Below are positions 4,163 through 54,200 of a DNA stretch of 64,000 bases, piece after piece. Under the pieces are notes generated by a model. The model was not told the DNA's origin. It saw only the letters and a program-made list of their open reading frames with translations, and ran no database searches. The stretch is from Candidatus Lindowbacteria bacterium RIFCSPLOWO2_12_FULL_62_27 (GTDB lineage: Bacteria; Lindowbacteria; 2-12-FULL-62-27), in assembly GCA_001784175.1 (NCBI GenBank), contig MFPR01000012.1, positions 18,236-82,235 of the forward strand, in the 5' to 3' direction. Position numbers and translations under genes: made by a program. The stretch's first letter is position 1. Every line of letters begins with the position of its first letter.

Positions 4163-4483
4163 TCACCCCGCGTCCGCGGCCCCCGTTCGGATCGTTTCGC
4201 TTTCCGTCAGCGGCGAGACGAAGATTTTCCCGTCGCCCGGGTTGCCGGTGCGGGCGGCGATTTTGATGGAGTCGATGGCGAGGTCCACGGCGCTGTCCTT
4301 GACGACGGCCAGGATGAGAACCTTGGGGAGTTCCTCGTAGCGGACGGTGCCGGCGACGAGGCCCTTCTGGCGGCCGCGGCCGAAGACGTCGATTTTCGTG
4401 TAGGCGTTCACCCCGCTTTTGGCGAGATGGTCGATCACGTCCTTTTCCTTTTCCCTGCGAACGATTGCTTGAATCATTTTCAT
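4163..4483 (-). CDS. NifI1-like P-II nitrogen regulatory protein (third P-II domain of the operon)
   Basis: 106 residues starting MKMIQAIVRREKE. It has the P-II fold signature: GRGRQKG before the T-loop, YEELPK after it, and the ATP-binding B-loop TGNPGDGKIFVSP. The T-loop resembles the NifI1 group rather than GlnB/GlnK, with no canonical uridylylated Tyr motif. Such proteins sense ATP/ADP and 2-oxoglutarate and bind a target enzyme or transporter. It is the last gene of the nitrite operon and overlaps the nirB stop by 4 bases. Regulation of nitrite reductase or NarK is the likely role; no nif genes are present in this window. Confidence 0.85.
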   Translation of the reverse strand: MKMIQAIVRREKEKDVIDHLAKSGVNAYTKIDVFGRGRQKGLVAGTVRYEELPKVLILAVVKDSAVDLAIDSIKIAARTGNPGDGKIFVSPLTESETIRTGAADAG

Positions 4484-7400
4484 GATGCCTCCACCACCTC
4501 CGGGACCAAGCCCACGCGTTTTTCGGATTTGGGCATTTTGTCGATCAGCCGCTGCTCGATCATTTTTTCGACCGCCGCGAATCCCAGGCGGCCGATGGTG
4601 TCGCGCACGGTTTCGCCCGACGTGCGATTGAGGAGGATCACGTCGAGAAGCGAGTCGAGGGTCGGCACGACCATGTCCTCCGTGACTTTGCGCGCCACCG
4701 GCTGGGCGAGCTCCACTTTCGCGTCGCCCTGCCCCCCCTGGCCGATCCGGCCGCAGGCGACCATCGTATAGGAATAGCGTTTCTCCTCGCCCACGGCCGA
4801 CATGGACCCGACAAGCCCGATGTCCGCGAGCTGCTGTTTGGTGCAACTGTTCGGACATCCCGAGATGCTGATGAGGAGTCCCTCGAGGAGCGCAGCCTTG
4901 GCGGGGTCGATGGGACTGAATTTTTTGATAATGTCGCGTGCGGCGCCCTGGGAATTGGTCACGGCGAGGACGCAGAACTCGGTGCCGACGCAGGCGGTGA
5001 CGCGCAGATTCTTGGATCTGTCTTTGAGCTTGAGCCTCGCGCGTTTCAGGTGCTCGATCAAGAGCGGGAGTTTTGCGGCCCGGACATAGTGAAATTCGAT
5101 GTCCTGGTCCTTCGTGAAACACGCCTCGCCGTTTCCATATCGCCGGCAAATTTCGGCGGCCTCCCGGATCTGCCAGCCCTCGATTTCGCCGAGCGTGACG
5201 TCGAGTTCGACGCGGACGTATCCCGGCTCGGATTGGGGATGGCAACCGGGGGGAAAGGACTGGGACCCCCTCACCCTGACCCTCTCCCCCATTCGGGGGA
5301 GAGGGGAAAAAGCGTACAAGATTCGTTCGAAGAAAGAAGGCAGCGCAGGCTTTTTCGGAGTGATCGCCAGCGGGATCTGAAAAGCGCGGTTTTCGGGCAT
5401 GGCCTTTTTTTCGGCGAAGACTTTTTCGAACTCCGCCGTGAATTTTTCGCGGCCCCAATCCTCGATCAGATGTTTGAGCCTTGATTTTTCCTTTGTGCGG
5501 ATGCCGTGTTTCATGTGGATTTCGAAAATCGTCTGGCAGACAGCGAGAACCTCCGACGGGGTCACAAAGTCGCGGATTTTGAATCCGAGCATTGCGCGCT
5601 TGCCCAGACTGCCGCCGACCCAGGCTTCGAAACCGGGTTCAGCCTCCTTACGCACCGGCACGAACGCGATGTCGTTGATCTGCGCTTCGCCGCCGCAGTC
5701 AGGACCGCCGGCGAAATAGATGTTGAGGCGGTTGGGCATTTTGGAATTGATGTAGTCCGAGCGCTGGACAAAATGGTCGGAGATCGCCTTGGCCCAGGCA
5801 TGCGCGTCGACCTTCGCGCACGGGCAGATGTGCGAATGCGGGCAGGCGGCGACATTGCGCATGGTGTGGCCGCAACTGGACCGGGTCGTGATCCCGACCC
5901 GTTCGAGCCGGTCCCAGATGGCGGGGACTTCGTCGACTTTGACCCAGTGAAGCTCGATGTCCTGCCGCGTGGTCAGGTGTCCCCAGCCGCGACCATGGAG
6001 ATCGGCGACTTCGGCCAGCGCCATGAGCTGCTTGGCGGTGACTTTGCCGCCGGGGATGCGGATCCGCATCATGAAAAAGCCGGCGTGCTTCTGGCTGCAG
6101 ACGCCGTATGTTTTCAGGCGGTAATAATCGTCTTCCGACAGCGCGAACGCGCCCTGTTGGCGGATTTTTTCCCAGTCGAGCGACAGCCCCTCCTGCTTGA
6201 TTTTTTCGACCGGAAGGACCCGCGGATATTCGCGCGGAACGTCAAATCGCTGAGGCGCGGGCGGCGCCGGCCTGCCGCCGAGCGTTTCTTTGATTATCGT
6301 GTCGACAAGCGACGCGCAGGACCCGCATCCTGTCGATGCTTTGGTGCAGCGCGCCACGTCCGCCACCGTCTTGCAGTCCTTCTCGCGGATCGCCTTGACG
6401 ATGGTTCCCTTGGACACGGAATTGCAGTTGCAGACCTGGTCGGTGTCGGCCATCGCCGTCCCGCTGATCACGATGCGATCCTTGGCCGCGACCTGTTCGT
6501 TGACCATCGACTGAATCTCGGCCATGCGGTCGGTGACCTCGCGGCCGGATTTGATGAGATTGAACAATTCCTGTCCGTTCTTCTTGGTGCCCAGGAGGAT
6601 CATGCCGACCAGCCGGCCGCGCTGAAGAACGACTTTTTTATAGACGCCCTTGGTGGAATCGATGAAGACGAGTTTCTCGTATCCCGGGCCGCCCAGAAAT
6701 TGCCCGGCCGACATGAGTTCCACGCCGGCCACTTTCAGCACCGTCGCGCACACCGAGCCTTCATACCGCAGCGCGCCGGGGCCGACCATCGCGTCGGCCG
6801 CGACCCGGACCTGCTCACGGATCGGATCGATGAAGCCGTACACTTTTCCGCGATGCTCGACGACGTCACCGACCGCAAAGATGTCAGGGTGCGAGGTCTG
6901 CAGGCGGTCGTTAACGATCAGACCGCGGTGGGCGGCCAGGCCGGCCGCGCGGGCCAGCTCCAGATTGGGCCGGACACCGGTGCAGACGAGGACGAGATCC
7001 GCCGGCATGTCCTCTCCGGACTTGAGGCGGATGCCTTCGACTTTTCCGTTCCCCAGAATTTCGGTTGCCGTGGTGTTTAGAAGGAATTCGATTCCCATGC
7101 GCTCCATTTCGCGTTTCAGAAGCGCCGCGCCGAGATCGTCGAGCTGCAGTTCCATCAGGCGGTCCATCAGATGGACGACCGTGACCGACAATCCGTGATT
7201 GATCAGGCCACGCGCCGCTTCAAGGCCCAGGAGGCCGCCGCCGATGACCACGGCACGGCGAGATTTTTGTGCCAGATCCAGAATGCGCTCGCAGTCTTCG
7301 AGCGTCCGAAAACACAGGACGCCCGCCTTGTCCGCCCCCTGCATCGGCGGGATGAAGGGACTGCCGCCGACCGCGATGAGGAGCCGGTCGAACGGCGTGA

Positions 7401-7704
7401 CAGCGCCCGACGCGTCCGTGACGGTTTTGCCCTCCGGATCGATCGACGCCACGCGCGCGCCGGCGCGCAGGTCAATCCGGTTTTGTTCGTACCATTCCCT
7501 CGGATTGAGGACGATGTCCTTCGCTGCGCGTTTGCCGGCGACGACGTCGGACAGAAGAATCCGGTTGTAATTGACATGCGGCTCGTCCCCGAAGATCGTC
7601 ACGGCGACGGTGGGATCGAGTTTCAGGACTTCCTCCACGGCGGCCACGCCGGCCATGCCGTTGCCGATCACAACCAGGCGTTTCGGCTTCGGATCAGAAC
7701 TCAT
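4480..7704 (-). CDS. nirB: NAD(P)H-dependent assimilatory nitrite reductase, large fused form
   Basis: 1074 residues from the ATG at 7704, which overlaps narK by 11 bases. Domain order: FAD/NAD(P)-binding oxidoreductase (GNGMAG near residue 14, second dinucleotide motif GGGLLG), BFD-type [2Fe-2S] domain (VCNCN near 424, later CGSC), then two ferredoxin-like sulfite/nitrite reductase halves. The siroheme/4Fe-4S ligands lie in the second half: ACVGTEFC near 901 and SGCPNSC near 948. It reduces nitrite to ammonium in the cytoplasm. Ordinary NirB proteins are about 830-850 residues; this one carries two full reductase halves and has no NirD partner here. Residues about 798-813 come from a palindromic repeat inserted in frame between the halves. 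Confidence 0.92.
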   Translation of the reverse strand: MSSDPKPKRLVVIGNGMAGVAAVEEVLKLDPTVAVTIFGDEPHVNYNRILLSDVVAGKRAAKDIVLNPREWYEQNRIDLRAGARVASIDPEGKTVTDASGAVTPFDRLLIAVGGSPFIPPMQGADKAGVLCFRTLEDCERILDLAQKSRRAVVIGGGLLGLEAARGLINHGLSVTVVHLMDRLMELQLDDLGAALLKREMERMGIEFLLNTTATEILGNGKVEGIRLKSGEDMPADLVLVCTGVRPNLELARAAGLAAHRGLIVNDRLQTSHPDIFAVGDVVEHRGKVYGFIDPIREQVRVAADAMVGPGALRYEGSVCATVLKVAGVELMSAGQFLGGPGYEKLVFIDSTKGVYKKVVLQRGRLVGMILLGTKKNGQELFNLIKSGREVTDRMAEIQSMVNEQVAAKDRIVISGTAMADTDQVCNCNSVSKGTIVKAIREKDCKTVADVARCTKASTGCGSCASLVDTIIKETLGGRPAPPAPQRFDVPREYPRVLPVEKIKQEGLSLDWEKIRQQGAFALSEDDYYRLKTYGVCSQKHAGFFMMRIRIPGGKVTAKQLMALAEVADLHGRGWGHLTTRQDIELHWVKVDEVPAIWDRLERVGITTRSSCGHTMRNVAACPHSHICPCAKVDAHAWAKAISDHFVQRSDYINSKMPNRLNIYFAGGPDCGGEAQINDIAFVPVRKEAEPGFEAWVGGSLGKRAMLGFKIRDFVTPSEVLAVCQTIFEIHMKHGIRTKEKSRLKHLIEDWGREKFTAEFEKVFAEKKAMPENRAFQIPLAITPKKPALPSFFERILYAFSPLPRMGERVRVRGSQSFPPGCHPQSEPGYVRVELDVTLGEIEGWQIREAAEICRRYGNGEACFTKDQDIEFHYVRAAKLPLLIEHLKRARLKLKDRSKNLRVTACVGTEFCVLAVTNSQGAARDIIKKFSPIDPAKAALLEGLLISISGCPNSCTKQQLADIGLVGSMSAVGEEKRYSYTMVACGRIGQGGQGDAKVELAQPVARKVTEDMVVPTLDSLLDVILLNRTSGETVRDTIGRLGFAAVEKMIEQRLIDKMPKSEKRVGLVPEVVEAS
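5265..5310. repeat. Family-1 palindromic repeat inside nirB
   Basis: A CCTCACC-type arm followed by a hairpin with stem CCTCTCCCCC / GGGGGAGAGG. It is translated in frame within NirB as roughly FSPLPRMGERVRVRG. Other copies of the family are at 16471, 32741, 32810, 36585, 39677 and 63951. Confidence 0.8.
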
Positions 7705-8986
7705 GATAGGCCACCTGCATCTGCACCCGGCCGCCAAACGGCCAGAGGTCCGGCGCCACGCGGACCTTCGCCCGCCCGCCGTCGTCGACCCATGTCCGGG
7801 TCCAGTCCGACTGCGCCCGGCGAAACACGTAGAGCGCGATCGTCGCCATCGCCATGAAGGCGATGAAACCCCAAGCGAAGGAATCGCTGTATTGTTTGGA
7901 CAGCCCCATGGCGTTCGGGACGAGCCCGCCGCCCAGGCCCCCGATTTCGCCGATCATGCTGCCGGCCACGGCCGTCGTGACGGGCCAGCGAAGCGGCACG
8001 AGTTGAAAGAGCGCGCCGTTGCCCGCGCCGAAGGCGGCGAAGCAGACCATGAAGAGGGCCGTCGTCGCCACAAGGCCAAGATCGAAACTGGCCGTGAACA
8101 TGCAGGCGATGATGACGCAGAACATCAGCGTCAGCGTGTTGATCCCGCCCCATCGGTCGCTCAGCCACCCGCCGAAAACGCGGATGCAACTGCCCATGAG
8201 CGCGGCCAGCATGGTGAGCTGTCCGGCCTCGACTTTCGACACGCCGAACTGGTCGTGGTAATAGGTCGGAAGAAAATTGGAAAGCCCGATGAATCCCCCG
8301 AAGGTGACGATGTACATCAGATTGAATACCCAGCCGTCCTTTTCCCACAAACACTCGAGGTGCTTCATCAACGACAAATGCTCGGTGTCCGGCGGTTCCT
8401 TGGCGAAGACGATCATGACGACGATGGGAAGCAGCATGAAGAGGGCGCCGAAGCCGTAGACAGCGCTCCAACCGTACTGCGCCGCCAGCGGCGGCGCGCA
8501 GAGGACCGCGAGAACGGTGCCGCTGTTGCCGGCGCCGGCGATGCCCATGGCCAGGCCCTTGTGCCGGGCCGGAAACCAGCCGGAGCCCAGCGACAGCGCC
8601 ACGCCGAAACTCGCGCCGGCGATTCCGAGGAGCACGCCCATCCGGATGACTTCGGAGAACGTGTCGACCATGAAATAGCCGTAGAGCAGCGCGAAGAAAA
8701 TGACGCTCATTTCCAGGAGCGCCGCGTTTTTCCGGCCGATGTACTGGGCCAGAATGCCGAGCGGAAACCGCATGAGCGCGCCGGACAGAATGGGAATGGA
8801 GATCATGAACCCCTTTTGCGCGGGCGACAAATGAAAGGTTTCGCTGATGAAGGGCGCCATCGCGCCGTTCAGGACCCAGATGGCGAAACAGAAATCGAAA
8901 TACAGAAACGACGACCACAACGTCGGCGCATGGCCGGAGTTGAGGAACGCCCGGAAGTTGGTCGCGGACCTCTGAAGGAATCTCAT
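7694..8986 (-). CDS. narK: Nitrate/nitrite transporter, major facilitator superfamily
   Basis: 430 residues from the ATG at 8986, one base after the stop of the upstream P-II gene. The sequence is hydrophobic with about 12 predicted membrane segments. NarK/NasA-type landmarks include an Arg in the early helices (LMRFPLG), repeated Gly-rich helices (GIAGASFGVALSLGSGW, GIAGAGNSGT) and a second nitrate-signature-like segment (GEIGGLGGG). It imports nitrate or exchanges nitrate and nitrite across the inner membrane. It sits between a NifI1-like P-II and nirB. Assimilation rather than respiration is suggested by the company of nirB and P-II, and by the lack of narGHI. Confidence 0.9.
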   Translation of the reverse strand: MRFLQRSATNFRAFLNSGHAPTLWSSFLYFDFCFAIWVLNGAMAPFISETFHLSPAQKGFMISIPILSGALMRFPLGILAQYIGRKNAALLEMSVIFFALLYGYFMVDTFSEVIRMGVLLGIAGASFGVALSLGSGWFPARHKGLAMGIAGAGNSGTVLAVLCAPPLAAQYGWSAVYGFGALFMLLPIVVMIVFAKEPPDTEHLSLMKHLECLWEKDGWVFNLMYIVTFGGFIGLSNFLPTYYHDQFGVSKVEAGQLTMLAALMGSCIRVFGGWLSDRWGGINTLTLMFCVIIACMFTASFDLGLVATTALFMVCFAAFGAGNGALFQLVPLRWPVTTAVAGSMIGEIGGLGGGLVPNAMGLSKQYSDSFAWGFIAFMAMATIALYVFRRAQSDWTRTWVDDGGRAKVRVAPDLWPFGGRVQMQVAYHEF

Positions 8987-8987
8987 C

Positions 8988-9302
8988 TCAGGATTTCCCC
9001 CCGGTCCGGACGGTGTATGCCTCCCGCACGCTCTGGACAAAGACCTTGCCGTCGCCCGGCCGGCCCGTCCGGGCCTCCTCTTCGATCGCGCGCTTCGCGC
9101 GAGGGAAATCCTCGTCGGACACGGCCAGGAACAGCATGAGCTTGGACAGCTCATCGTAGTTGACCGAGCCGACCTGCACGCCGCGCTCCACGCCGTGGCC
9201 GAGCACCGGCAGCTTGGTCATGGCAAAAATTCCCTCCTTTTCGAGGCGGCCGATCACCTCGGCCTCCTTTTCCGGACGGATCACGGCTCTGATCAGTTTC
9301 AT
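8988..9302 (-). CDS. NifI1-like P-II nitrogen regulatory protein
   Basis: 104 residues starting MKLIRAVIRPEKEAEV. It carries GHGVERG and YDELSK flanking the T-loop, and TGRPGDGKVFV as the nucleotide-binding B-loop. It overlaps the end of the molybdopterin-NifI2 fusion gene by 4 bases and is followed one base later by narK. In methanogens and some bacteria NifI1 and NifI2 form a hetero-oligomer that controls nitrogenase by 2-oxoglutarate. Here an equivalent pair sits in a nitrate/nitrite operon, so its target is more likely NarK, NirB or the fused molybdoenzyme. Confidence 0.85.
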   Translation of the reverse strand: MKLIRAVIRPEKEAEVIGRLEKEGIFAMTKLPVLGHGVERGVQVGSVNYDELSKLMLFLAVSDEDFPRAKRAIEEEARTGRPGDGKVFVQSVREAYTVRTGGKS

Positions 9303-10486
9303 ATCGCCACCACGCCCCGTTCGCTTGTGCTGACCCGCACGGCGTCTTCGGCGTCAAGGACAAAAATCTTGCCGTCCCCGTATTCGCCTTTGCCGGTGCG
9401 GTTGGCCTTGATGAGGCTGCGGATCACACGCGGGACCTGGTTTTCCTCGACGAAGATATGAAACAACTGTTTCGGCAAAAACTTGATGGCCGCATCGCCA
9501 TCCTCCGGCGAGGGAAACTTGAGCCCGCGTTGCCGGCCTCGGCCCAGGACGGGGTAGGTGGTGAACTGGTAGACGCCGTTTTCCTCAAGGGCCTTTTCCG
9601 TCTCCATTCGCCGGGTGGACCGGACGATGGCAACGATTTCCCGGAGAACGCCCGTTTGAGTTTTGACCTCCGGATTCTGCGCCCGGACCGGACTGCCTGC
9701 TCGGGCGGTGATGGCGGGAGCCAGCGCGACGGGGACCGACTGCTTCAGCCCGTCCCCGGCCACGCCGACCCGGTCGGCGTCGGAGACGCCGGCACTTGGG
9801 GCGCCGGAGGCGCTGACCCGGCCGTTTCCCGCGTCTTCCGCCGGCGGCGGCGGATCGCCGGCCCGCCCGGGCGGAAGATCAATGTTGTATTTCTGTGTCC
9901 ATGTGGAATTAAGTTTTGCGCTGGGGCTCTGGCCCAAAAGGCGCTTGATGCCGCACGGATCGTATCGAAACGCGCGGACGGACCCGACCCATTTGACGCT
10001 CTTGTACCCTTGGAGAAACGGCACCACGAGCCGGAGGGGACCGCCGTGCTGAATCGGCAGCGGCGCGCCGTTCATGCCGTATGCGAGGAGGACCCGGGGA
10101 TCGCGGGCTTCGCCGCGGGACAGCGTTTCAAAATAGACGCCATCCCGGGAATAGAATGCATAGTAGCCGTCGGGGCTGGTTTCGATTTTGAGAAAGTCGA
10201 GCACGTCCGCCAGCCGGACGCCCTCCCACTCCACCTCCTGGGACCAGTTGAATATCTGGCAGATGAGCGGCAGCTTGAGCTTGACGCGCGGCAGGTCCGC
10301 AACGGTCTTCCAGGAAATGGACCGCGGCTGCTCCTCAAGGCCGCACACGAACAGCCGGAGGTCATTCAGTTCCTGCGGCGCCGGAATCGGATACAGGCAC
10401 AACACCGGCAGCGGATCGGCTTCAAAGTCGATCTTGAAGAACTTGTCCGCAAACTTCGGATATAAAACCCCTTCCCGTACGCTCAT
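9299..10486 (-). CDS. Sulfite oxidase-family molybdopterin domain fused to NifI2-like P-II domain
   Basis: 395 residues. Residues about 25-190 match the molybdopterin-binding domain of sulfite oxidase and eukaryotic nitrate reductase: the cofactor-ligating Cys in PLICQIF (Cys76), then WEGVRLADVL, YGMNGAPLPIQHGGPLRLVV and YKSVKWV. Residues about 277-390 are a P-II domain of NifI2 type, with FLPKQLFHI and TGKGEYGDGKIFV. The linker contains a family-2 repeat (residues about 219-237). No signal peptide is seen, so it acts in the cytoplasm. It is first in an operon that has a nitrate transporter and nitrite reductase but no classical nitrate reductase. I infer it may be the nitrate reductase or a redox partner under direct 2-oxoglutarate/ATP control. 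I know of no well-studied protein with this architecture. Confidence 0.8.
   Translation of the reverse strand: MSVREGVLYPKFADKFFKIDFEADPLPVLCLYPIPAPQELNDLRLFVCGLEEQPRSISWKTVADLPRVKLKLPLICQIFNWSQEVEWEGVRLADVLDFLKIETSPDGYYAFYSRDGVYFETLSRGEARDPRVLLAYGMNGAPLPIQHGGPLRLVVPFLQGYKSVKWVGSVRAFRYDPCGIKRLLGQSPSAKLNSTWTQKYNIDLPPGRAGDPPPPAEDAGNGRVSASGAPSAGVSDADRVGVAGDGLKQSVPVALAPAITARAGSPVRAQNPEVKTQTGVLREIVAIVRSTRRMETEKALEENGVYQFTTYPVLGRGRQRGLKFPSPEDGDAAIKFLPKQLFHIFVEENQVPRVIRSLIKANRTGKGEYGDGKIFVLDAEDAVRVSTSERGVVAI
9774..9828. repeat. Family-2 twin-hairpin repeat inside the molybdopterin-P-II gene
   Basis: About 50 bases with two small hairpins closed by GGA: GGCGTC-GGA-GACGCC and GCGCC-GGA-GGCGC. It is translated in frame as about [17 protein letters not shown]. 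Other copies are at 16311 (carA), 28450 (purQ) and 53110 (primase, opposite orientation). Confidence 0.8.
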
Positions 10487-15295: not shown

Positions 15296-16447
15296 TCAGC
15301 GTTTCTTGCACATCGTAAGAAAGCGGTCGAAAAGGTCCAGACTGTCTCTCGGCCCGGGTGACGACTCGGGGTGAAACTGGACGCCAAACGCCGCTTTCCC
15401 GGGAAACTCCAGGCCCTCCACCGTCCCGTCGTACAAACTCTCGTGGGTGATCCGGCATCCGCGCGAGGGCGGTCGGGGCATTCGCACGGAGAATCCGTGA
15501 TTCTGGGTCGTGATGGCCACGCGGCCGTTCCCGGACGCGCGCACAGGATGATTGGCGCCGCGGTGGCCGAATTTGAGCTTGAACGTTTTCAATCCGCCGG
15601 CCAGCCCGAGGAGCTGGTGGCCGAGACAGATGCCGAACATCGGCGTTTTGCCGAGAAGGGCCCGGATATGCCCGATGGGCTGACGCATGGCGGCCGGATC
15701 GCCCGGGCCGTTCGAAAGGAGCACGCCGTCGAGTCTCGCCGACAGGATGTCTACCGCCCGCGTCGACGCGGGAACGCGCCAGACCGAGACGCCGCGCCGG
15801 AGCAGCTCGTTCACGATGCTCTGCTTGACGCCGTAATCGACGAGGGCGATCTTCAGTCCGGATTTTTTCTTCGGCAGATGCCAGCGCGGCCGTTTCAAGG
15901 TGACGCGCGGCGACAGATCCATGCCCGCCATGTCGGGCACGGCGGCCAACAACGCCCGCGCGCGGGCCGGCGGCGTTTCGATCGGCGCGAGGACGCCGTT
16001 TTGCGATCCCCCGTCACGCAGAAGTTCCGTGAGACGCCGCGTATCGACGCCGGTCAGACCCGGCACGCCGGCCGAGCGCAGCGCCGCGTCGAGCGACAGG
16101 CGCGTTTGCGGATTGGAAAAAACGGGAGAGAGTTCCGAAACGATCAGCCCGACCACCTGGATTTTCCCGGACTCCATCCGGCGCCGTTCGAAACCGTAGT
16201 TGCCGATCAGGGGATTCGTCAGTACCAGGATCTGCCCGGCAAAGGATGGGTCCGTCAACGATTCCGTGTATCCGGTCATCGAAGTCGTGAACACCACTTC
16301 TCCTCCGGCCGGCGTCGGAGACGCCGGCACTTGGAGCGCCGGAGGCGCTGACCCGGCCGGCAGCCGGCGGCGGGCGCCAAAGACCACGCCCGGAAAAATC
16401 TCACCGGATTTCAGGACAAGCTTTGCCCGTCTTACGTCGAATTTCAA
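15296..16447 (-). CDS. carA: Carbamoyl-phosphate synthase small (glutaminase) subunit
   Basis: I place the start at TTG 16447 (383 residues) because a GGGAGG ribosome site lies 4 bases upstream and the protein then begins [16 protein letters not shown]. An apparent earlier start falls inside a palindromic repeat. The C-terminal class I glutaminase has the nucleophile in [10 protein letters not shown] and the His-Glu pair in QFHPES. A family-2 repeat adds about 18 residues near position 30-47, between FGARRR and [13 protein letters not shown], which are adjacent in ordinary CarA proteins. It feeds ammonia to CarB. An intact frame and motifs suggest it works despite the insert. Confidence 0.93.
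16311..16362. repeat. Family-2 twin-hairpin repeat inside carA
   Basis: Same core as the copy at 9774, with the first stem extended to nine pairs (GCCGGCGTC-GGA-GACGCCGGC). It is read in a different frame from the copies in purQ and the P-II fusion, yet gives no stop codon. Confidence 0.8.
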
Positions 16448-16470: not shown

Positions 16471-16515
16471 GCCCCCTCACCCCCACCCTCTCCCCCTGCG
16501 GGGGAGAGGGGGCTG
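16471..16515. repeat. Family-1 palindromic repeat between guaA and carA
   Basis: CCCCTCACC arm, then stem CCCTCTCCCCC / GGGGGAGAGGG. It fills the only sizeable gap (73 bases) in this part of the operon and lies just upstream of the carA ribosome site. Confidence 0.75.
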
Positions 16516-28346: not shown

Positions 28347-29158
28347 CGCGGATCGCCCGCCCCGACAGATACATCGCGTCGCACCAGATGGTTGTATATG
28401 GATTTGAAAAAATAGTATCCCCATCCCCAGCGGGACTGCGCCGACGGCGGGCTGGCGTCGGAGACGCCGGCACTTGGGGCGCCGGAGGCGCTGACCCGGC
28501 CGGAACCCCAGTCCGGATCGTAGTGATCTTCGCTGTACAGGAATCGCTCCGGATGCGGCATGAGGCCGAACACGCGACCCGAATCGTCCTGCAAACCCGC
28601 GATCGCGCAGGCCGAGCCGTTCACGTTGTCTTCATACACGAGCGGCGCCAGTCCCGAAGCGATGTAGGATTCCGCCAGCCCCGGCCGGGCGACAAACCGG
28701 CCCTCCCGATGGGCGATCGGCAGCTCGAAGACGTCCGGGAGGGCTGAGAGATAGGGATTGTCCGGGCACAGCGTCCGAAGCCGGACCCATCGGCAGAGGA
28801 AGGCATGGCTTGCGTTTTCGATCAGCCGGCCTTCCGGCAGAAGGCCGAGCTGAACGAGAATCTGAAACCCGTTGCAGATGCCCAGGATCAATCCGCCGGC
28901 CGACCGGTAGGCCAGGAGCGCATCGCCCAGTTTCCGCTGGATCTCCAGCCGCGCAAGCCGGCCCGCGCCGATGTAATCGCCGTAACTGAATCCGCCCGGA
29001 AGAACCAGGAGGTCCGAGCCGCAAATGAGTTCGCGGGTCGCATCCGAAAAGGGCACGATGTCGGCGGCAAATCCTGCCAGCCGCAGCGCCCGCGCCGTTT
29101 CCCCGTCACAGTTCGTGCCGGGAAATTTCAGAAGTGTCGCTTGAGGCCGTTTTTCCAT
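28343..29158 (-). CDS. purQ: Phosphoribosylformylglycinamidine synthase, glutaminase subunit
   Basis: 271 residues, longer than the usual ~230. The start overlaps purL by 31 bases. The sequence KFPGTNCDGET is diagnostic, the nucleophile is in GICNGFQIL and the catalytic His-Glu is in PHPERF. After PHPERFLYSEDHYDPDW a family-2 repeat supplies about 18 residues before the last helix (FFKSIYNHLV), explaining the extra length. It supplies ammonia to PurL. Confidence 0.94.
   Translation of the reverse strand: MEKRPQATLLKFPGTNCDGETARALRLAGFAADIVPFSDATRELICGSDLLVLPGGFSYGDYIGAGRLARLEIQRKLGDALLAYRSAGGLILGICNGFQILVQLGLLPEGRLIENASHAFLCRWVRLRTLCPDNPYLSALPDVFELPIAHREGRFVARPGLAESYIASGLAPLVYEDNVNGSACAIAGLQDDSGRVFGLMPHPERFLYSEDHYDPDWGSGRVSASGAPSAGVSDASPPSAQSRWGWGYYFFKSIYNHLVRRDVSVGAGDPR
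28450..28502. repeat. Family-2 twin-hairpin repeat inside purQ
   Basis: Same core and same reading frame as the copy at 9774, so both proteins carry the identical insert [16 protein letters not shown]. It lies between the catalytic His-Glu and the final helix. Confidence 0.8.
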
Positions 29159-51293: not shown

Positions 51294-54200
51294 CTACGAC
51301 GCCGTTTTGGGGCGCTTGGCGTCTTTCTCTTTTATATGCGTTTTCGCCCGATTTTTGAGAAGTGCGTTTGAAGCGGTCGGCGTTGTTGGAGTTGCGGAAG
51401 AATCCACACCCGGACCACCCCCGGACCGGGGGCGGACCGCGCCCGGACCGGACCCGGACCGCGATCCCTCCGACCCGGACCGGTCGGCATTTTGCCAGGA
51501 CCGGTCGCCGTCGTAAGGCTGTTCGAGTGTGGCCGGATCGATCAGGCCCATGCAAAACGGCGCGCCGTCCTTGCCTTGGCCGTCGTAGATCAACTCGTAG
51601 ACGAAGGACTGACCGCGCCCGCGGTGGAGGATGAGAAACTCCATTTCGACCAGGCGCGCCATGTGGATTTTGAGCGGCGTGTCGCTCCATCCCGTGAACT
51701 CGCGTACGTCGCGGCGGCCGAACCGGAAAGCGGCGCGGGTTATTTTGCCGCCGTTTGTTTTCGCCGTCACCATGTCGTCAAGAAGAGTGAGCAGGCGGCG
51801 TGTCTGCGGCTGGAGTTCATCGAGGGACCGGCCGAGGACGACGTTGGCGATGCGGTTGGCGCCCTCGATGTCTTTCGGCATGACCTCGATGTAGGAAATC
51901 ACGCGCGGGCCGTCCTGCGTTTGTTTGACGGGGCGCTGGTACTGATGCAAAAGCGCAATGGACCGGATCAGCGTCAGATATTTCGGATGGTCGCGCCGCG
52001 TCCGCAGTTGGGTGCTCAAGAATTTGAGTTGTTTGGCGTAGCGGTTCACGACGCGGATCGGGCGCAAAAGGCGCTGGGCGTTTTGGTGGCGGCGCAGGAT
52101 GTCGTCGCGCCGTTCCTGACGCAGGACGCCCTCAAGCGTCTCGCGTTCGCGCTGTAGCTCGTGGATCCGCTCCGTCTGCTCGCGGTCCTCGTTGATCGTG
52201 ATGACCAGGACGCGGTTTAGGAGTTCCTCGTCAATCTCGTAATTGGTCGTCGTGATGATGATGACGACCGGCCCCTCGACTCTCGACTCAAACGCGACGT
52301 GCTTGCCGGTCGTCGGGTCTTTGCCGGTGGACGCAATCACCAGCTTGCCCTCGCTCTGTAGAAGTTTGATCGCGTAGGTGGCGTTCTCCGCGCCCTTTTC
52401 CTCGACGATGGCGAGGATTTTGTGTTTGAGATTTTTTTCGCCCATGTAAAAGAGTGCCTGGCCGGTGACGGCGCTGAATTGTTCGCGCTCCTCTTTCGGC
52501 ATGAGCGACAAAATGGCGTCCATGAGCGTGGTCTTGCCGGCGGCGCTGGCCGACTGGATGATGATCGCCAGCGGGTCTTTGAACTTGCGCGACACGCACG
52601 CGAGGTATCCGGTGAGGGCGTTGACTTCCTCTCCGACAATGCCGATGGACTCGAAGTCCTTGACGATCTGGTCCAGCAGATCGGGCGCGCGAAGAAACGC
52701 CAGCGCTTCCTCTTTCTCCGCCTCGGTTAACGTCACGGTTGCATCTGGCGGGTTGATCGCCTTTTGGATGAGGTTGTCCTGGAGTTCTTCGAGTTTCAGA
52801 AGCAACCGGCGCAGGTCGTCTTTCAACATATCTTCGGACAGGCTGGTCTCGGTCGAAGCGGCTTTGAGAAACGCCGCGCGGTGCCTGGCGTTTGCCAGGT
52901 CCACGGTGTCGAGGTGGAAGCGGTCGCCGATCGACACGCGCACGCTCACGCGCAGGACGCCGTAGGTCGTGTTCTTTTCAATGCCGCGAATCCGCCACGC
53001 GCGGCCGTCAAAGACTTCATCGAGTTGGTGGCCGTTACCGGACGGGATCGCCGCCGCCTCCGGCCTCGCGTGGGCCTCCAGCGGCGCGCACTCGTGCAGA
53101 TCCGCCGCGGCCGGATCAGCGCCTCCGGCGCCACAAGTGCCGATGTCTCCGACATCGGCCGGATCGGGCGCCGCCGGCGTCAGGGATTTCTCGCCTGGTG
53201 ATTCTTCGGCGGCTGAAGGTGGAGAAATTTTTTCTTTAGCTGCTACCGGCATGTCTACGATTGACGATTTGCCTCTGCCGATCCACGCCGCGCCGCGAAG
53301 GAGAACTCCCAACGCGTCGGCCGGATCGGAGACGGAACACGCGAACGAGTTCGCGTCCTCACCGTCGGGAAAGTTTACGCGCGACACTTCGAAGCCGTAT
53401 CCCATCAGGATCGCCGCCAGTTTCGTCGCGGCGCGGTCGCCTGCCTCGTCCCGATCATAGGCGATCAACACTTTTTCGACTTCGGACATCCTGAGCGCAT
53501 GGAGATGATCCGCCGTGAATCCCTCGACACCGTAGCTGGCCGTGACGTTGCGAAAGCCCGCGCACCAGAACGTCAGCGCGTCAATGAGGGCTTCGCACAG
53601 GATCGCTTCTTTACTCGCCGCTAAAGAAGAAACATTCCAGACGCCCTTGTGCGGCCCGGGCAGATAGAGGTGATAGGCCGTCCCGTCGCGCAGGTCGTCC
53701 CGAATCTTGCGGCCGTACATTTCGGTGATGCTTCCGTTTTCGTCCATCACGGGAATGACGATACTGCCGTTGAATCGTTCATGACCTTTGACGCTGTAGA
53801 CGCCGAGTCGTTGAAGCTGGCCGCGAATCTTCGCGCCCTCGTCGCGGTTTGAGTCGGCGAGATAGTAGCCGAACGTTCGGTTGGAATAGCCGAGTTTGAA
53901 ATGGTCGATGGCGCCGGCGTGGCCGATCCTGCGGCGTTCGAGGTAGGCTAGGGCCTCCGGCGAATCTTTGAGCGTCTCGACGTAGAAATCGACGGCGCAG
54001 CGCAGCGCCGTCTGATCGGACGCGCCGATCGGAATGGGACAGGGAAGTTTTTTGACGGTGCCGACTTTGACGACGGGCCGGGCAGTCGCCGGCGTGAGCG
54101 CGACGTCATGCCGGCGCAGAAGTTCGACGGCCTGACGGAAGGACACGCCCTCCGCTTTCCGAACCCAATCGATCACGCTGCCGCCCTTCGGGTCCTGGCA

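Follow-up and report, generated by a model that had tools for sequence, protein, structure and literature searches.

A sulfite oxidase-fold molybdenum domain fused to a NifI2-type P-II domain in a nitrate/nitrite operon of Candidatus Lindowbacteria: a candidate self-regulated nitrate reductase

All known prokaryotic nitrate reductases belong, to our knowledge, to the DMSO-reductase family. NasA/NarB-type enzymes working with NirB(D) occupy the same pathway position, beside NarK and NirB, as the protein described here, whereas their molybdenum fold is unrelated to it and the present cassette contains no gene of the DMSO-reductase family. Eukaryotic nitrate reductase (2bii/2bih) shares with it the sulfite oxidase (SUOX) fold, the cysteine ligand of molybdenum and the proposed assimilatory nitrate pathway. 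In diazotrophs, the NifI1/NifI2 switch shuts nitrogenase as 2-oxoglutarate falls. Group 3 of Kappler, which we take to consist of YuiH-like proteins, has in common with the present family a PF00174 domain of about 200 aa and the lack of a heme or flavin domain. This group comprises the uncharacterized single-subunit cytoplasmic proteins of the sulfite oxidase family (PMC7759655). A search of open papers returned no description of a fusion of a molybdenum cofactor (Moco) domain to P-II or of the cassette that contains it.

The window, i.e., the whole analyzed stretch of 64,000 nucleotides, belongs to a genome of 4.39 Mb in 44 contigs. The fusion gene (9299..10486, minus strand, as are the other genes of its operon) starts with ATG at 10486, stops at 9299–9301 and encodes 395 aa; it is the first gene of its operon and is supported by the reading frame, the Pfam domains and homologous fusions elsewhere. 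The Oxidored_molyb domain (PF00174) spans residues 37–172 (9971..10378; E 2e-27, 96 bits against a cut-off of 24), and the P-II domain (PF00543) spans residues 282–389 (9320..9643; E 2.6e-17, 63 bits against a cut-off of 25). Pfam detected only these two domains on the fusion, with no cytochrome b5, FAD/NADH or dimerization domain. In the AlphaFold2 model, a folded domain lies on either side of a disordered Pro/Ala/Gly-rich linker (residues about 205–279, 9650..9874; pLDDT below 50 at 207–277). The Moco part resembles sulfite oxidases (Foldseek 3.9e-10; VIA Z 13.7 over 183–185 residues), and the P-II part resembles GlnK/PII (VIA Z 15). The sequence-only reading, according to which a Moco domain with its ligand cysteine is joined to a P-II domain, is borne out by the two Pfam domains, the two folded domains and Cys76 (see below). 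An assembly artifact or a chance fusion is ruled out, since the same fusion recurs in many genomes across phyla.

The linker contains a dispersed GC-rich repeat of about 55 bp (9770..9824), which is in frame and of which the genome contains at least 39 more copies. It is also found at 16305–16359, 28454–28502 and 53108–53153; at least 40 copies are present genome-wide, at least two of them inside open reading frames. The linker sequence is not conserved, being different in G001, a genome of another genus of the same family, and unrelated in the fusions of other genomes; therefore, the repeat as the maker of the fusion is ruled out. Part of a different dispersed repeat, which also matches 16472–16496 and L140, forms an insert relative to homologues in the NirB-like frame (window about 5265–5290).

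The putative molybdenum ligand, Cys76 (10259–10261), is located in the motif LICQIFNW. This residue is invariant in 19 aligned members of the subfamily and aligns with the cysteine of plant sulfite oxidase. The loop has the form C-x4-W in the subfamily versus C-x3-W (CVTxW and similar) in 23 comparison proteins. CQIFNW replaces the CAGNRR motif of sulfite oxidases and nitrate reductases, and the arginines are missing; nitrate specificity is therefore unreadable from the residues. The window protein differs from the eukaryotic nitrate reductase in the absence not only of CAGNRR, but also of the cytochrome b5, FAD and C-terminal dimer domains. Similarity to this enzyme is distant (2bii, E 2.7e-7) compared with plant sulfite oxidase (2e-15) and MsrP (8.7e-12). 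Eukaryotic nitrate reductase is absent among the structure-search matches listed, which neither shows nor excludes kinship. The argument that the shared fold of the eukaryotic enzyme points to nitrate reduction is thus weak, and assignment to the eukaryotic type is ruled out by the active-site motif.

MsrP/YedY and SorA/SorT/SoxC share with the window protein the SUOX fold and the Mo-binding region HGGPLR...KSVKW; the window protein differs from them in having no evident signal peptide, and its operon has no partner cytochrome gene. Scores far below the NCBIfam cut-offs (MsrP 46/207, SorA 34/600, SorT 41/570 and SoxC 32/420 bits) rule out assignment to MsrP or Sor. Like MsrP, the enzyme could nevertheless act on another oxo-substrate (sulfite, an S-oxide or an N-oxide) and thereby assist siroheme nitrite reduction, with NarK importing nitrite that comes from NapA or from outside. 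The missing active-site arginine fits this explanation, as does the fact that characterized bacterial members of the family oxidize sulfite or reduce sulfoxides (PMC7759655). The evidence from genome content, which bears on the same question, is considered below.

In the Moco-domain tree (n = 76), all 31 members of the subfamily form a single clade (100/100) that excludes the 45 other SUOX proteins. Unlike the group 3 proteins, this clade is characterized by its separate position, the C-x4-W loop, the nitrate/nitrite operon and frequent fusion to P-II. Two divergent members, L159 and L160, have no nitrogen context. Ordinary SUOX relatives in other phyla have no NirB or P-II neighbors, except for a partial NirB-like match near L134 (G025), and this lack of context, which extends to almost all of the 45 proteins outside the clade, helped to delimit it. 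One genome contains a tandem pair of SUOX-type Moco proteins (L095, G177:C8:72312-73615).

The operon comprises the fusion, a NifI1-type P-II protein, NarK, NirB and a second NifI1-type P-II protein, the frames of which overlap or nearly touch; the fusion is preceded by an AT-rich gap longer than 100 bp. The start of the first NifI1-type protein (104 aa, 8988..9302; PF00543 E 1.2e-19; top PDB match 9p1x_H, E 9.4e-29) overlaps the stop of the fusion (ATGA). The NarK-family nitrate/nitrite MFS transporter (about 7694..8986, the start being placed by homologues) scores 242 bits (E 1.1e-71) with TIGR00886, under the cut-off of 312, this being the best model by far. The NirB-type NADH nitrite reductase (about 4480..7704, the start again placed by homologues) contains FAD/NAD, BFD [2Fe-2S] and two NIR_SIR halves (Pfam) and reaches 574.2 bits (E 5e-172) against a TIGR02374 cut-off of 578.35; the protein carries the repeat-derived insert mentioned above. 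The second NifI1-type protein (106 aa, 4163..4483; PF00543 E 2.5e-24) starts by overlapping the stop of NirB. The family models and the P-II tree, which places both proteins in the NifI1 clade, agree with the partners proposed earlier (NarK, NirB and NifI1-like P-II), and the P-II modules of the operon are three (fused, after the fusion and after NirB), not two.

The P-II tree was built with reference NifI pairs, three of the four taken beside nifH. The fused P-II domains cluster in a single clade (98/91) and group together with the separate NifI2-like proteins of the cassettes and the reference nif-linked NifI2 (86/88). All 24 sampled partner P-II proteins fall with reference NifI1 (100/99). 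The top PDB match of the fused domain is chain G of 9p1x (E 6.6e-36), a nitrogenase–PII complex that contains the nitrogenase alpha chain and has chains G and H in 6 and 12 copies. The tree and this match assign the fused P-II to the NifI2 type and not to GlnB/K or NifI1. As in the NifI1/NifI2–nitrogenase system, both classes are encoded together; the fused P-II is nearest to the longer P-II chain of 9p1x and the neighboring P-II to the shorter one. In contrast to that system, the pair is tied here to nitrate/nitrite reductases, NifI2 is covalently attached to the enzyme and the ATP loop is longer by two residues.

The Gln of GRGRQRG and the Lys of FLPK are invariant in the P-II alignment; presumably, these are the 2-oxoglutarate contacts of PII proteins. 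The ATP (B) loop of the fused domain keeps GDGKIF, preceded by the two extra residues (TGKGEYGDG versus TGxxGDG), and the C-loop has RVST instead of RxRT, the second Arg being replaced by Ser. The loop described in the sequence-only reading as intact is thus present, but the word is generous. By analogy with nitrogenase, which is controlled by P-II proteins of the NifI2 type, gating of the fusion by 2-oxoglutarate and ATP is plausible. The switch could, however, act on both NirB and the Moco enzyme, or on NirB alone. In the fused P-II domain of G001 (L048 3709-4533), the T-loop is extended by about 18 residues (KAMDGQVPNVTGMSNVRP), an insert that looks repeat-derived.

The compared set includes three genomes of the phylum of the window. 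G001 has the same genes, with the fusion split across two contigs: P-II, NarK and NirB follow the fusion on one contig, and the end of NirB with a P-II gene is on a third. The nearest named relative is L149 (Candidatus Lindowbacteria MAG, JAHFCY010000258), which corresponds to the stretch in G001. Across named genomes, a scan gave 20 loci. The fusion occurs in Lindowbacteria, Nitrospirota (Troglogloeales, Manganitrophaceae) and one Acidobacteria MAG. Unfused Moco genes (205–240 aa) occur in other Nitrospirota, in Elusimicrobia and in bins assigned to Thaumarchaeota and Dehalococcoidia; the subfamily as such is present in 16 of the 395 sampled Nitrospirota genomes. L150, L154 and L160, which carry cassette or related Moco genes, come from bins assigned to Thaumarchaeota, Dehalococcoidia and Pacearchaeota, for which transfer or contamination is possible. 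In Ca. Manganitrophus GAC4 (L155 9001-13975), the fusion and NirB frames are both interrupted, which is probably due to assembly or sequencing indels, because the frames of relatives are intact.

Given enough flank, the subfamily adjoins NirB or NirA, P-II and/or NarK, except in the two divergent members, while the order of these flanking genes (NirB or NirA, both P-II types and NarK) varies. It is fusion–PII–NarK–NirB–PII–MoaA in G423, Moco–NirB–NifI2–NifI1–NarK in L151, and NifI2–Moco (separate genes)–NarK–NirA–NifI1–moaA in Elusimicrobia. In Elusimicrobia, in L150 and in two genomes of Nitrospirota (L156 13424-14431, L157 11131-12108, L158 3897-4904, L150 10952-11977, L249 and L250), the cassette has the Moco biosynthesis gene moaA beside it or nearby. 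G206 has a stretch (L135 10125-12167, 13549-13863) encoding a NifI2-like P-II, a NirA-like reductase and a NifI1-like P-II, with no Moco gene.

Alternatively, NirB could be the main target of the P-II module. The fusion would then serve only to anchor the Moco subunit, whether this is a nitrate reductase or some other oxidoreductase, to a NifI1/NifI2 complex acting as a clamp on nitrite reductase. The G206 stretch is consistent with this, and so are L151–L153, where the P-II pair directly follows NirB and Moco is a separate gene. Nevertheless, NifI2 is repeatedly linked to the Moco gene, being fused to it in many genomes and adjacent in Elusimicrobia, and this explanation is regarded as a serious but unlikely one. 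Under the preferred reading, in which the Moco enzyme itself is a regulated nitrate reductase, the NifI switch may additionally, or even primarily, act on nitrite reductase, because the G206 cluster without a Moco gene exists.

Other nitrate reductases in the cassette genomes were inventoried by a PF00384 search with NCBIfam typing. The NasC model NF047855 was dropped as a presence/absence test for Nitrospirota, as it also matches formate dehydrogenases and NuoG. The genome of the window encodes NapA (979 bits against an equivalog cut-off of 904), which is periplasmic rather than NasA-type. Thus, the earlier statement that an ordinary nitrate reductase is absent is correct for the operon but not for the genome, and the idea of a genome devoid of nitrate reductase is ruled out here. 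Beside NapA, this genome (L002, L003; G000:C4) has an arsenite-oxidase-like AioA (428 bits, over the cut-off), the gene of which is preceded by a small frame with a Tat signal.

In G423 (one contig, 2,559,538 bp) and G470, the PF00384 proteins are NuoG only, with no NasA/Nap/Nar candidate. G391, G393, G395, G396 and G397 have only NuoG-type proteins, as judged from their N termini and, in the sampled cases, from the level of the NF047855 score. The chromosome of Ca. Manganitrophus GAC4 contains NuoG-type and QrcB-like proteins only, again with no NasA/Nap/Nar candidate, and the Elusimicrobia genomes G400 and G402 have zero PF00384 matches and a single PF00174 match each. Those without another candidate include two single-contig chromosomes (G423 and GAC4). 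MAGs, which could be incomplete, make up most of the genomes. NasA/Fdh-like enzymes are present in G388, G389 and G770, and Fdh/NasC-like ones in G486 and G587; with these enzymes or NapA, some genomes thus have a candidate other than the Moco protein.

The presence of NapA in the window genome could support the action of the Moco enzyme on another oxo-substrate, with NapA as the source of nitrite. Against this, a NapA-type enzyme was not detected in several cassette genomes, and moaA in some cassettes together with the nitrate/nitrite context fits nitrate better. Manganitrophus cultures were maintained with 1 mM nitrate as the nitrogen source (PMC9040806), this being a statement on mixed cultures of the genus rather than on GAC4 itself; if the substrate were different, the GAC4 chromosome would offer no obvious reductase for this nitrate-fed lineage. 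Action on another substrate seems quite doubtful. The reading as a nitrate reductase retains the support of the multi-phylum context and of the cassette genomes lacking a NasA/Nap/Nar candidate, while the comparison with the eukaryotic enzyme adds little and the host has NapA. The sole-candidate status of the Moco protein in some genomes points to a bacterial nitrate reductase of a self-regulated kind not described before.

Judging by sequence, the operon probably serves to reduce nitrate to ammonium in the cytosol for assimilation, with a SUOX-fold reductase tied to a NifI1/NifI2-type 2-oxoglutarate/ATP switch; the probability of this reading is estimated at roughly 0.6. In the scheme that we infer, including nitrate as the substrate, the electron donor, the gating and its direction, NarK would import nitrate (or nitrite), the SUOX-fold Moco domain would reduce nitrate to nitrite, and NirB would convert nitrite to ammonium. 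An external electron donor is needed, because the Moco domain has no heme or flavin of its own; electrons could be supplied by the FAD/[2Fe-2S] module of NirB or by ferredoxin. The fused NifI2 and the NifI1-type proteins of the operon could form a hetero-oligomer like that on nitrogenase. At low 2-oxoglutarate (nitrogen-replete cells), this complex would clamp the reductases, and at high 2-oxoglutarate with ATP it would release them.

The small size of the domain and its lack of electron carriers could also suggest a nitrate or redox sensor without turnover, which relays its state to the fused P-II switch. This is very improbable: free unfused versions persist beside NirB, the Cys ligand and the pocket residues are strictly conserved, and the catalytic subunits of SorT and MsrP likewise have only the Mo center, yet they catalyze. 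For the catalytic reading in its broader form, the chances are about even that the family represents an unrecognized class of bacterial assimilatory nitrate reductase, cytosolic and SUOX-fold, independent of NasA/NarB/Nap/Nar and distinct from the eukaryotic enzyme, which carries the NifI2 half of a nitrogenase-style switch in the same chain, this switch governing nitrite reductase too.

If this is true, a SUOX-fold nitrate reductase would fill the apparently missing nitrate step in genomes with NarK and NirB, including those of nitrate-fed manganese-oxidizing autotrophs. It would also assign a function to part of the sulfite oxidase subgroup listed as uncharacterized. A NifI-type P-II on the enzyme would mean that nitrate assimilation has taken over the off-switch of nitrogenase, in this case via direct gene fusion.
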